From positions 3,286,001 through 3,350,000 of the forward strand of contig NZ_JARVZZ010000001.1 in the NCBI RefSeq assembly GCF_029846115.1: DNA of 64,000 nucleotides. Reading direction: 5' to 3'. The position numbers and the translations under genes were made by a program. Source of the stretch: Serratia marcescens. GTDB lineage: Bacteria; Pseudomonadota; Gammaproteobacteria; Enterobacterales; Enterobacteriaceae. This document shows positions 1-2,710 of this stretch, piece by piece. Under the pieces are notes generated by a model. That model worked only from the letters and a program-made list of their open reading frames with translations, was not told the origin of the DNA and did not search any database. The first letter of the stretch is position 1. The number at the start of each line of letters is the position of its first letter.

Positions 1-42
1 GTAAAATCCCGTCTGTGAATCCAATAGTTGATGCTTGCTCAT
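1..42 (-). CDS. 5' end of an unidentified gene, cut by the left edge
   Basis: On the minus strand an ATG at 42-40 opens a frame without stops to the window edge, reading MSKHQLLDSQTGFY. An AGGG ribosome-binding site lies about 8 nt upstream, and the gene starts 27 nt after the stop of the acyltransferase gene. It is therefore probably the next gene of the microcin operon. In related class IIb microcin clusters the following genes encode the HlyD-like adaptor and ABC exporter, but 14 residues are too few to say which gene this is. Confidence 0.4.
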   Translation of the reverse strand, partial: MSKHQLLDSQTGFY

Positions 43-69: not shown

Positions 70-510
70 TTATTTTTTTACCGTCATCAGTTTGCCCGTT
101 CGGCGGGAACGCCATACAACCGTGCGACGTTCTGCGATTGGGTAAACTGTTTTAAGGTGTTCCAAACATAAATGCGCGCTGCCTGGCTTGCAGCAAAAGT
201 CTAAAATACACAGCGTGCCGCCCTCATCCCATTCTGAGTTATGCAGAAGAAACTGCGGATCGTTAATAAATCGACCCAGCGTCTCATCTCTCAGGTAGGC
301 CCAGGTTATATATCCTAACGGATTATCCAAATGATCGAATAATATTTTGAATTGATTTTGATTAATCGCTTCCTGAGTCCATAGCTGCAACGTTTTTATA
401 TGGTACAAACTGTAATTTTTATTCATCAACATACAGCTAACGGCGAAGCCCAGGCTCTCGTATTGACTGAACTTACTTTTACCCTGCTGGTTTTCTTTGA
501 TAAAACTCAC
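70..510 (-). CDS. mchD: HlyC/MchD-like acyltransferase, microcin maturation
   Basis: A 146-residue protein of the toxin-activating lysine-acyltransferase (HlyC) fold. The central block (LGYITWAYLRDETLGRF, about residues 66-82, then WDEGGTLCILDFCCKPG near 94-110) matches the family layout of a conserved tryptophan stretch followed by a hydrophobic strand with Asp-Phe. In class IIb microcin clusters the members of this family (MchD, MceI) act with MchC/MceJ to join glucosylated enterobactin to the C-terminus of the microcin; that role is inferred here from the neighbours. The start codon is GTG with GAGG 8 nt upstream. It lies 18 nt after the mchC-like gene, in the same transcription unit. Confidence 0.78.
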   Translation of the reverse strand: MSFIKENQQGKSKFSQYESLGFAVSCMLMNKNYSLYHIKTLQLWTQEAINQNQFKILFDHLDNPLGYITWAYLRDETLGRFINDPQFLLHNSEWDEGGTLCILDFCCKPGSAHLCLEHLKTVYPIAERRTVVWRSRRTGKLMTVKK

Positions 511-528
511 GAAATATCCTCAGCGTTA

Positions 529-2055
529 TTATTGTAATACGTTGATCGCCTGACGCTCGAAACGATCCAGATAGATTTGCAACTGTTCGCTGATCTCGCT
601 GAATTCACCGCGCCAGCCGGCAATTTCTTGAAAAATCACTTCACGGCGCATGAACGCGCGGGAGCCCAACCTTCTGGTGACGGTCTGCTTCATCGCCTGT
701 TGTAATCCGGCGGCGGTTTGATCCGCTGATGTTTCCTGAAGGTACTTCGCGTATAACCGCTGGAATGCCAGAGAAAATCTCTCTTCCGCTGTCGTACCCT
801 GTTGTTCGGCGGAAACCCTGACGGGCGAGTCGATGAGCCGATGTAACAGGGCAATCGCCGGATGAGCATTCCCCTGGCCCAGACCTTGTCGACGGCTAAA
901 GATGCCGGGAGCCAAATCGAACATTTTTTGCAAGCGTTCGCCTAAGGCGAACCAGTCGGCGGTGAGAGGCAGGCGTTGTAAAAATGCAGAGTCAAAACCC
1001 GCCATACCGAGATTATCCAGCAGGCAGGCTCGCGTGTAGGCCATATTAAAGGCCGCGCCGATGCCTTGGTGCGCTGCCGCGAGAAATGCCGGGCCAAATT
1101 GATGCTTGGCTAAATAAAAAGCGAGATCTTGCACGCCTCTCAGCAACAAAGGGGCGTCTTCGTTGAGTTTGTTGTGCTGAATGTAGCTGCGGCCGGGATC
1201 GCGACGTTCTGCGGGAAAAACACTGCGAACACCATGAAAGTCCAGCAGCCTGCCGGCCATATCGCAATTGGAGGGTGAGGTCATCATCACCAAATGGCGG
1301 GTACGGCAGTAAGCTATCTGCGTCGCAAGGCGCCGTGCAAGCTCGCAGAGCCCGTAGAAGGCTCGTTCTTCCTGCGGCAACGCCAACCAGCGCGCAGCGT
1401 CAAACTCAGAGGGACGAGGCAGAAAGGTTGGTGCGGCGACAATGAGCTTTTTGGTCCGCTCAATATCCGAAGGCTGCCTTTGCATCGCATCATGAGGATG
1501 ATAGTAGGGCGCGCGGCAAAAATGTGCAGGGCGCACGACGGGTTCGCGCACCAGCAACGCCTTGCGGTTATGGACGCCTCCCGCCGATGCAGGAGAGAGG
1601 GTGGCGATGGGGTTGTCGGTCAGCAAGATCGCCTTATTGGGCACGGCACCGTAAGGCAGCAGTTTGGCCATGACGTTTCCCCATAATGCCTCCAATACTG
1701 CGCCGGTCATTGTCAACTCGCCATCGACATGCTTCGCCCCTTGACCGACTAACGCATTGGCTCCGATGCCTTTAACCTGCCATCGCCCATCAAAGCCACA
1801 GCGTGCGCCGCCGCCGTTGCGCGAAATAGCCCCGCCGCCATAACGTTCGGCGAAAAAGACTTTTTCATCGTTTAAGAGCGGCGTGCCGTCATCAAAAATA
1901 GCATGACGATTATTTTCTTCGATGAGATAGCTGGTCTCATTTTTCAGTTCGCTCTGCTCTGCAGGGTTTAATCCGTTGTGCCAGAGTAATTGAGAACCTG
2001 TCTTTTTTGCGACGAAAGGAATCAAGCTTTCGTGAAGCATGGCGAGGTTTTTCAT
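529..2055 (-). CDS. mchC: MchC/MceJ-like microcin modification protein
   Basis: A 508-residue soluble protein without signal peptide or membrane segment. Size, order and partnership with an HlyC-like acyltransferase fit MchC (microcins H47/M) and MceJ (E492), which are needed to attach the catecholate siderophore to the microcin C-terminus. I recognise no catalytic motif; the identification rests on overall resemblance and on the neighbours. A glycine-rich stretch near residues 70-85 (RYGGGAISRNGGGARCGF) is notable. The start is ATG with a weak, A-rich upstream region and no clear Shine-Dalgarno sequence, which suggests lower expression than the microcin gene 80 nt upstream. Confidence 0.72.
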   Translation of the reverse strand: MKNLAMLHESLIPFVAKKTGSQLLWHNGLNPAEQSELKNETSYLIEENNRHAIFDDGTPLLNDEKVFFAERYGGGAISRNGGGARCGFDGRWQVKGIGANALVGQGAKHVDGELTMTGAVLEALWGNVMAKLLPYGAVPNKAILLTDNPIATLSPASAGGVHNRKALLVREPVVRPAHFCRAPYYHPHDAMQRQPSDIERTKKLIVAAPTFLPRPSEFDAARWLALPQEERAFYGLCELARRLATQIAYCRTRHLVMMTSPSNCDMAGRLLDFHGVRSVFPAERRDPGRSYIQHNKLNEDAPLLLRGVQDLAFYLAKHQFGPAFLAAAHQGIGAAFNMAYTRACLLDNLGMAGFDSAFLQRLPLTADWFALGERLQKMFDLAPGIFSRRQGLGQGNAHPAIALLHRLIDSPVRVSAEQQGTTAEERFSLAFQRLYAKYLQETSADQTAAGLQQAMKQTVTRRLGSRAFMRREVIFQEIAGWRGEFSEISEQLQIYLDRFERQAINVLQ

Positions 2056-2135: not shown

Positions 2136-2423
2136 TTAATTTGAAGAATCCGGTGTTGAAAGTGACGACGACGGTGAAGGGCGACCACCGCCACTGCCAT
2201 TCCATGTTGGGCCCATGGGAACCTGTGGAATAGCAACGTTAACCGGCATGTGCGGTGCGGCCTGAATAGCGATTTCCGTGCCCACGCCCACGGCTAATGA
2301 TACGGGGGTGGGCAATTTCGCTATTGTGCTCAGGCTGCCGACAATAAGCGAAGTCGGATTATAAGAATCATTGCCGTCAGATCCGTTAATACATGACAAC
2401 TCAACTTCCGTTAAGGCTCTCAT
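2136..2423 (-). CDS. Class IIb (siderophore) microcin precursor
   Basis: A 95-residue precursor with the hallmarks of class IIb microcins. The leader MRALTEVELSCINGS matches the double-glycine-type leader (MR-L-E-L-I-G-G/A/S), so ABC-exporter cleavage is expected after Gly14-Ser15, leaving an 80-residue peptide that starts DGNDS. The front (INGSDGNDS, then LIVGSL) resembles microcin M. The rear (PVNVAIPQVPMGPTWNGSG) closely resembles microcin E492, followed by the expected Ser/Gly/Pro tail (SPSSSLSTPDSSN). The last residue is Asn, not the Ser that carries glucosyl-enterobactin in E492. Its ATG overlaps the stop of the immunity gene (ATGA), so the two are translationally coupled. By analogy, the target would be enterobacteria with catecholate-siderophore receptors. 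Confidence 0.88.
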   Translation of the reverse strand: MRALTEVELSCINGSDGNDSYNPTSLIVGSLSTIAKLPTPVSLAVGVGTEIAIQAAPHMPVNVAIPQVPMGPTWNGSGGGRPSPSSSLSTPDSSN

Positions 2424-2710
2424 TTAAGCTCCTTCTTGCGAGAGGTAATGGATAACACAAGCGAAAAAATAACCGCCATCGGCAAACCATACATTGCCGT
2501 GATTTTAAGGGCCGCCGTATCCAAAAGGATCGCCTGGCGCTGCAGGCAATAGTCTAAAAATACGGCAAGGGGGAATATCAAGAACAGCATGACGATATGG
2601 TACGTGCGCAAGCCTTTTTTCTTCGCGTTTTTATAAATCGCACTGATAATGAGGATGAAAATGACAATAAGAACTATTTCCGTTATAAGCTGCAATTTGA
2701 TTAGCTCCAT
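2420..2710 (-). CDS. Microcin immunity protein, small membrane protein
   Basis: A 96-residue hydrophobic protein with three predicted membrane helices (about residues 6-27, 38-56 and 70-88) separated by short basic loops (YKNAKKKGLR; SRKKELK). Size and topology match MceB, the three-helix immunity protein of microcin E492, and it lies directly before and overlaps the microcin gene, as immunity genes do in this class. Sequence-level resemblance to MceB is low, as is usual for such proteins. It is the first gene of the operon, with a promoter about 20 nt upstream of the start codon. The Shine-Dalgarno sequence is poor. Confidence 0.8.
   Translation of the reverse strand: MELIKLQLITEIVLIVIFILIISAIYKNAKKKGLRTYHIVMLFLIFPLAVFLDYCLQRQAILLDTAALKITAMYGLPMAVIFSLVLSITSRKKELK

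Follow-up and report, generated by a model that had tools for sequence, protein, structure and literature searches.

An E492-group microcin operon of Serratia marcescens with two NRPS genes of its own, best seen as a siderophore-type microcin variant

What, if anything, is joined to the C-terminal end of a microcin whose gene lies beside a coupling pair of the MchC/MchD type and upstream of two NRPS genes? In this study we focus on a Serratia marcescens locus that raises this question, at the left end of a stretch of 64,000 nt (the window; NZ_JARVZZ010000001.1:3286001-3350000) in a 5.22-Mb genome. A further 16 kb to the left was included, and positions in this extended piece, L002, are converted to window positions by subtracting 16000. 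An earlier note on this DNA had described a probable new class IIb microcin, a hybrid of microcins M and E492, whose neighbouring genes attach glucosyl-enterobactin. The features on which the argument turns are the following.

2420-2710, minus strand: 96-aa putative immunity protein with three hydrophobic regions, opening the minus-strand run
2136-2423, minus strand: E492-group microcin precursor, 95 aa, above the NF051486 cut-off
2379-2423, minus strand: predicted leader peptide, 15 residues, Gly-Ser end, placed from double-glycine type leaders and the alignment with a microcin M relative
2139-2150, minus strand: codons for the C-terminal residues D-S-S-N, the end proposed for attachment and recognition, from the sequence and the tail comparison
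2099-2129, no strand: 12-bp inverted repeat in the gap from the precursor stop to the mchC start
529-2055, minus strand: MchC/MceJ-like protein, 508 aa, from its database relative and the MchC tree
70-510, minus strand: MchD/MceI-like HlyC-family acyltransferase, 146 aa, GTG start (PF02794, 42.2 bits, E 8.9e-11)
1-42, minus strand: first 14 codons of NRPS1, the remainder lying left of the window
L002:12236-16042, minus strand: NRPS1, 1268 aa, C-A-T plus a 245-aa end of unassigned kind
L002:8091-12236, minus strand: NRPS2, 1381 aa, C-A-T-TE
L002:7862-8050, minus strand: putative immunity protein, 62 aa, hydrophobic
L002:7586-7846, minus strand: class II microcin precursor, 86 aa, MccV match below the Pfam cut-off
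L002:7394-7561, minus strand: putative immunity protein, 55 aa, hydrophobic
L002:7064-7351, minus strand: second 95-aa microcin precursor
L002:3500-6878, strand opposite to the operon: exporter, HlyD partner and C39-type ABC exporter, convergent (PF03412, PF00005 and HlyD domains)

The 95-residue ORF with a Gly-Ser type leader is indeed present on the minus strand, and the profile search that the earlier note had set as a check does find microcin similarity: against the NCBIfam model NF051486 ('E492 group microcin') the precursor scores 63.5 bits (E 2e-17), where the curated threshold is 50 bits, and the match spans the full model (positions 1-88 of 88). A Pfam search returned no family up to E 1. 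The hybrid character holds for part of the peptide, likeness to a microcin M relative lying within the first 19 residues (E 6e-6, single comparison) and likeness to an E492 relative within an 18-residue stretch near the rear, HMPVNVAIPQVPMGPTWN (E 6e-4); thus the term fits two short stretches and not the whole peptide. The gene is clearly under purifying selection, with dN/dS of 0.00-0.05 in three pairwise comparisons, and all three precursors of the operon fall in the same range against up to three relatives. The immunity-like gene gives 0.14-0.22 (three relatives), and the microcin genes are 91-100% identical to the Serratia bockelmannii copies (L003).

The precursor most likely corresponds to SM051 in Parker et al. 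2026 (PMC13101503), a match by description to the available text of that paper (nearest to MchC, serine-rich C-terminus, same neighbours), and such a locus has been linked to microcin and NRPS in PMC4117218; the epithet 'new' is therefore withdrawn. It is a real Serratia bacteriocin precursor that has probably been catalogued before, and we infer, again from descriptions in the text available, that the three peptides of the operon are SM051, SM017 and SM027. According to that text of Parker et al. (PMC13101503), the three peptides occur together in strains Db11 and SM39, with neighbours of the same kinds and no modification assigned; the canonical IIb motif occurs in 0 of 93 S. marcescens peptides, so that class IIa or an undefined subclass is given for the three; SM027, SM051 and SM017 are the most prevalent S. 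marcescens microcins, SM051 being found in 55% of microcin-bearing assemblies; and none of the three is named among the active peptides in the portion available. Gerc et al. 2014 (PMC4117218, seen in part) had suggested, for a microcin-like cluster of S. marcescens Db10, that its two NRPS proteins may make a group that modifies the microcin, and an eLife 2024 study (PMC11634061, seen in part) tested other class IIb peptides with enterobactin coupling.

The surroundings of the precursor agree with much of the class IIb interpretation. The immunity gene said to overlap it, and to encode three helices, is a 96-aa ORF with three hydrophobic regions and a 4-bp overlap. The MchC- and MchD-like genes expected after it are there as well: the closest database relative of the ORF at 529-2055 is 92% identical and named MchC protein [Serratia marcescens], a family termed SelO-related in the accessible part of PMC3281104, and its partner matches PF02794. 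An exporter left of the window, the other check that the note had set, is found as the C39 ABC exporter with HlyD at L002:3500-6878. The locus thus combines a double-glycine type leader, a C39 ABC exporter with its fusion protein and a coupling pair of the MceIJ/MchCD type, and an E492-group class II microcin with an immunity-like gene, coupling pair and exporter stands, in contrast to the attachment of glucosyl-enterobactin, which is not supported. From the first immunity gene to the last microcin, the co-directional genes are separated by gaps of -4 to 80 bp, and from this spacing the ten genes look like a single operon. G+C per kb is 44-59% in the cluster against 57-66% in four adjoining kb, which is consistent with acquisition. 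An anti-phage reading was dropped, PADLOC giving no match for three proteins.

The claim that glucosyl-enterobactin is attached lacks support on several counts. No glucosyltransferase was found in the locus, and when the whole genome was searched with a glucosyltransferase from one canonical locus, the single match was weak and partial (33% over 128 residues), so that, for this one query, an enterobactin glucosyltransferase of the MceC/IroB kind was seen neither in the cluster nor in the genome; the tail is not canonical Gly/Ser, and NRPS genes stand in the operon instead. Among its last 10 residues the precursor has five G+S and a terminal PDSSN, rather than the Gly/Ser-rich motif of about 10 residues typical of class IIb; in the comparison peptides the count is 7-9 in nine of 11, and 5 and 6 in the other two. 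It could still be argued that MchC/MchD attach the host's glucosyl- or plain enterobactin while the product of the NRPS genes is a free siderophore or toxin unconnected with the microcins: proteins of this type are the enterobactin couplers of MccE492 and MccH47 (PMC6071977 and PMC7472721, each seen in part), the genome has EntE, an EntC-like gene, isochorismatase genes and an EntF relative with a Ser code, and Pectobacterium aroidearum has a close-branch MchC without NRPS1. We hold this to be distinctly unlikely, given the weak and partial glucosyltransferase match (one query), the tail without a Gly/Ser motif, the position of the NRPS pair, flanked within the microcin run by the acyltransferase on one side and two further microcins on the other, and its company with the close MchC branch in Serratia, Intestinirhabdus and Photorhabdus.

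That company was followed across 54 MchC stretches (45 named loci, our own, three further Serratia and five plasmids). Seven carry the NRPS1/2 pair (type A; five of them Serratia), four an EntF-like NRPS (type B), eight a glucosyltransferase and 35 none of these, and in 0 of the 54 do glucosyltransferase and NRPS occur together. Twelve enterobacterial MchC loci lie outside types A and B, the close-branch loci L006, L007 and L010 being excluded from this set; eight of them have a glycosyltransferase of about 370 aa and four an enterochelin-esterase relative within the stretch, and in four of the 12 canonical-branch stretches the glucosyltransferase was not seen. By size, fold family and place, set against the description of MceC as a 370-aa glycosyltransferase (PMC6071977, seen in part), we take the enzyme of about 370 aa to be of the MceC kind.

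Among 30 Serratia genomes, eight have an MchC match (five full-length close-branch, two of another branch, one cut short), and NRPS1 occurs in all five genomes with full-length close-branch MchC and in no other of the 30. In the MchC tree, which covers 28 of the 54 loci and carries long-branch warnings, the type A loci and P. aroidearum form one clade with support 99/99, within which the placement of Photorhabdus and Pectobacterium is unsettled. Our argument rests on the 30 Serratia genomes and the named loci because an even draw of 394 genomes across the order is too sparse for the trait: there an MchC search hit eight genomes, our own included, and a search for the NRPS1 end hit one, our own genome itself. 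Furthermore, a plasmid search for the close MchC branch gave 21 records, all below 60% identity.

P. aroidearum is a misfit to the pairing of close-branch MchC with NRPS1. It has a full-length close-branch MchC with HlyC and a tail ending G-S-N; no NRPS was found within 10 kb of MchC and no NRPS1 orthologue in the genome, the best match (34% identity, code DAEDIGTVVK) adjoining an EntE above the equivalog cut-off. This match lies within L115:2438-17334, apparently a catecholate cluster, in which an MxcG-like NRPS with a Lys/Arg-type code is accompanied by EntE, two further NRPS genes and an ORF that looks isochorismatase-like; the same genome also has close-branch MchC.

Other states of the locus were observed in passing. 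In S. proteamaculans (L007:9339-11759) immunity gene and precursor are intact, and the MchC match stops after about 157 codons and adjoins an exporter remnant, which looks like one internal deletion; HlyC was not found in the stretch, nor NRPS1 in the genome. In Klebsiella indica (L010:9421-10917) a close-branch MchC in two pieces lies beside an 81-residue microcin-like peptide ending DTSTN; no NRPS was found close by, nor did the genome yield an NRPS1 orthologue. The EntF-like gene of type B is directly upstream of MchC/MchD (L015:6005-9979, L016:5985-9986, L017:5988-9962 and L008:5967-9989). Its Ser-type code, DVWHFSLIDK, was read in three of the four loci, the NRPS of S. rubidaea L008 being split and giving no code; the C-A-T-TE architecture was checked in L015, in L016 and in both pieces of L008. 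Weak NRPS matches in L018 and L041 were not used. Finally, in Janthinobacterium, Photobacterium, Vibrio, Chitiniphilus and an unclassified proteobacterium (L026, L030, L032, L033, L036, L038 and L039), MchC is accompanied by two further common gene families; in L026, the one of the seven tested, these match family-2 glycosyltransferases and, just below cut-off, radical SAM, and we regard such loci as a possible further modification context.

We now turn to the two NRPSs and their likely product. NRPS1 is a relative of MxcG and EntF and not a member of either family, its best NCBIfam match being MxcG at 598 bits (equivalog cut-off 2300) and its EntF score 301 bits (cut-off 2400), both far below these cut-offs for a catecholate NRPS of that kind. 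It does have what such an enzyme needs in domains and code: in each of the four loci compared, both NRPSs retain intact C-domain and carrier motifs, as NRPS2 does its TE motif, and the NRPS1 code, DAEDIGSVVK, is of a Lys/Arg type, the Lys call being inexact, as the Arg codes in the part of PMC12283262 available are similarly close. This code and that of NRPS2, DLYNWSLIWK, are the same in four of four loci (L002-L005; Serratia, Intestinirhabdus and Photorhabdus), and the NRPS proteins of Intestinirhabdus and Photorhabdus are 43-67% identical to ours (NRPS1: Photorhabdus 43%, Intestinirhabdus 60%). The code DLYNWSLIWK is one that PMC12283262 (same part) gives for domains activating Cys, in that case with thiazole-type products; the C domain of our NRPS2 has a plain HHxxxDG motif, and a cyclisation motif was looked for in it and not found. 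In our genome EntE passes its equivalog cut-off, two relatives, one of EntC and one of EntF (the latter with a Ser code), stay below theirs, and an isochorismatase gene adjoins both EntE and the EntC relative, from which DHB is probably available. Since chrysobactin is DHB-Lys-Ser (PMC3795760, seen in part), a DHB-Lys-Cys product is predicted by analogy.

For the 245-aa end of NRPS1 (L002:12239-12985) a word-limited database search gave seven relatives at E <= 0.001, each between 1257 and 1274 aa in length. AlphaFold2 models of it (three sequences) reach a mean pLDDT of 63.8, with alternating helix and strand, and gave no Foldseek match at E <= 0.001. This end of unknown fold, together with the Cys code, the plain HHxxxDG C domain and the missing cyclisation motif in our NRPS2, would also suit an attached product that is not a siderophore, for instance a thiol- or amine-bearing peptide cap altering stability or targeting another receptor. 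Such a cap is very unlikely in our judgement, in view of the resemblance of NRPS1 to the DHB-using MxcG and EntF, the EntE gene beside its best match in P. aroidearum (34%), and the Fur-like site that precedes the exporter in Serratia.

The tails of the precursors bring a second line of evidence. The three precursors of the operon have unrelated cores and end in TPDSSN, NPADSN and NNTDSN, a D-S-(S)-N pattern. Elsewhere the 95-residue core is joined to a Ser-rich tail closing in GS, both in Yokenella and on a plasmid of Salmonella, and the 86-residue core recurs in Hafnia with an SSSGGGS end. A YESVD core has SSGGGS or SSGDGS as its end in Tenebrionibacter and Cedecea but DDSTN in Intestinirhabdus, which is of the NRPS type; Enterobacter shares the E492-like rear segment, with a GAGSAS end, and not the complete core. 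Three microcin cores and one rear segment are thus found with either tail type, and tail type tracks the MchC branch with one exception, the Photorhabdus asymbiotica candidate, whose end is not N and whose exporter gene is split in the stretch read.

Ends in [ST]N are counted in four of five type-A precursors and in seven of eight precursors of the wider MchC branch (two beside a broken MchC), against 0 of 11 in the comparison set. The 20 precursors behind this count were hand-picked from printed candidates, with 'canonical' assigned by MchC branch; near-identical Serratia copies, ORFs unlike precursors, the 90-residue L100:8065 and L102:8076 (both ending S) and, except for P. gessardii, the candidates outside Enterobacterales (L021, L024, L027, L028, L035, L037 and L040) were dropped. 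Four of the 11 comparison peptides come from stretches in which no glucosyltransferase was seen (L009, L012, L099 and L101); with glucosyltransferase-bearing loci only, the count is four of five against 0 of seven (p about 0.01, by hand). The p values are descriptive only, as the five type-A precursors represent three lineages and counting began after the pattern had been noticed, and gene conversion, not function, may account for the common tail of the three Serratia precursors. Precursor P0095 (ending PDLTN) and the NRPS1 relative P0100 appear to lie on one 22,064-base contig.

These cores also bear on whether the peptides are modified at all. They could be unmodified class IIa-like microcins, the modification genes being relics or serving another use, as would suit the available text of Parker et al. 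(PMC13101503), which names class IIa as one option on account of the missing canonical motif, and the retention of the precursor in S. proteamaculans with a cut-down MchC and without an NRPS1 orthologue. This is unlikely: MchC, HlyC, NRPS1 and NRPS2 are under purifying selection (dN/dS 0.10-0.31 against up to three relatives, HlyC of L003 and NRPS2 of L089 being omitted), active-site motifs are intact in four loci, and relatives of the cores elsewhere bear the canonical coupling tail.

A Fur-like site (16/19) precedes the exporter in five of five Serratia copies, a score reached in 0-1 of 300 shuffles; no Fur-like site above chance was found in the exporter upstream regions of Intestinirhabdus, Photorhabdus and Pectobacterium. 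Fur regulation of the precursor operon itself was considered and rejected: the best upstream match is 11/19, at chance level (reached in 270 of 300 shuffles), and the only good site precedes the exporter. A 14/19 Fur-like match lies inside the precursor gene, with similar scores elsewhere in the window. A scan of L002:6800-19100 gave four promoter-like sites, against 9.8 in shuffles, and 20 terminator-like sites, against 15.8, overall at chance level; of these sites we take as evidence only the hairpin with a T-run after the last microcin gene, because it is kept in the five Serratia copies compared. The 12-bp repeat at 2099-2129, relatives of which are seen in the other Serratia copies printed (weak in L089), is possibly an attenuator keeping the precursor in excess over the maturation enzymes, or an RNA-stabilising hairpin.

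Taken together, the gene content and order, domains, codes, tail pattern and selection observed here are best explained, with a probability of about 60%, by siderophore-type microcins that carry a dedicated NRPS-made, probably catecholate group, produced by their own two-module NRPS and joined by MchC/MchD; the product, linkage chemistry, uptake and activity are what we infer from them, as is the operon structure from gene spacing. The chromosomal ent genes would make DHB, loaded on EntB, from which the starter C domain of NRPS1 would take it and join it to a basic amino acid, most likely Lys; NRPS2 would add Cys, and its thioesterase would free a small catecholate (DHB-Lys-Cys or a bis-DHB form). 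MchC/MchD would couple this catecholate to the C-terminal carboxylate of each precursor at the common D-S-(S)-N end, through the Lys side-chain amine or the Cys thiol in place of the sugar of MccE492. The C39 exporter would cut the leaders and secrete all three conjugates, with more export under iron limitation via the Fur site. Catecholate receptors would let the conjugates into target cells, which would be killed at the inner membrane, where the immunity proteins would shield the producer.

A broader proposal, which we put forward tentatively and with less confidence, is that such operons represent a third siderophore-peptide class, defined by an operon-borne two-module NRPS and a group of the DHB-Lys-Cys type. 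In it the last microcin residues would act as an exchangeable address tag, and toxin cores would have been switched between the glucosyl-enterobactin (Gly/Ser tag) and NRPS (D-S-x-N tag) systems, so that three unrelated microcins can share one private siderophore and receptor route. If so, siderophore coupling to ribosomal peptides would extend beyond glucosyl-enterobactin, and some coupling enzymes would read another C-terminal tag and use a purpose-made siderophore. The operon would then provide a well-defined case in which to study what MchC/MchD recognise and the nucleophile they use. Lacking the tail, its peptides would look inactive when secreted from E. coli without the maturation genes. 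Both the module codes and the tail pattern make the idea of an NRPS-made tail directly testable. Tail exchange, the Lys/Cys codes and the mutual exclusion of glucosyltransferase and NRPS were not found stated in the open-licence literature searched.

The locus is thus a real and probably known microcin, whose operon is best seen as a variant of the siderophore-type microcins with its own NRPS-made tail. With the clusters of microcin E492 (mce, Klebsiella) and of H47 and M, compared here through relatives and papers and not the mce sequence, it shares the E492-group precursor model, an upstream immunity gene, a pair of the MceJ/MceI (MchC/MchD) type and a C39 ABC exporter with HlyD. It differs from them in having two NRPS genes, no glucosyltransferase or esterase match in the stretch, and a D-S-(S)-N instead of a Gly/Ser tail; moreover, the mce cluster has a Fur box at the mceX/mceJI unit (PMC6071977, seen in part), whereas the Serratia precursor operon has no Fur-like site above chance upstream. 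The type B loci (S. ureilytica, S. nevei, P. gessardii and S. rubidaea) likewise have an NRPS gene beside MchC/MchD and no glucosyltransferase seen in the stretch, but theirs is a single C-A-T-TE protein with a Ser-type code and an MchC outside the type-A clade, whereas the Serratia operon has the NRPS1/2 pair and an MchC inside it.

With the chrysobactin and myxochelin catecholate systems (CbsF, MxcG) the operon shares an NRPS1 nearest to MxcG and a plan of DHB, basic amino acid and second residue (PMC3795760, seen in part), the second residue being Ser in chrysobactin and predicted to be Cys for the Serratia NRPS2; NRPS1 has in addition the extra end domain, seen in the seven proteins of the word-limited search. 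The closest counterpart is the SM051-SM017-SM027 locus of Db11 and SM39, matched by description to the available text of PMC13101503 and PMC4117218, with three microcins, NRPS, an AMP-binding protein, acyltransferase, MchC and an opposite-strand exporter; module codes, a tail comparison and a product were not found in that text, and our analysis brings the codes and the tails.
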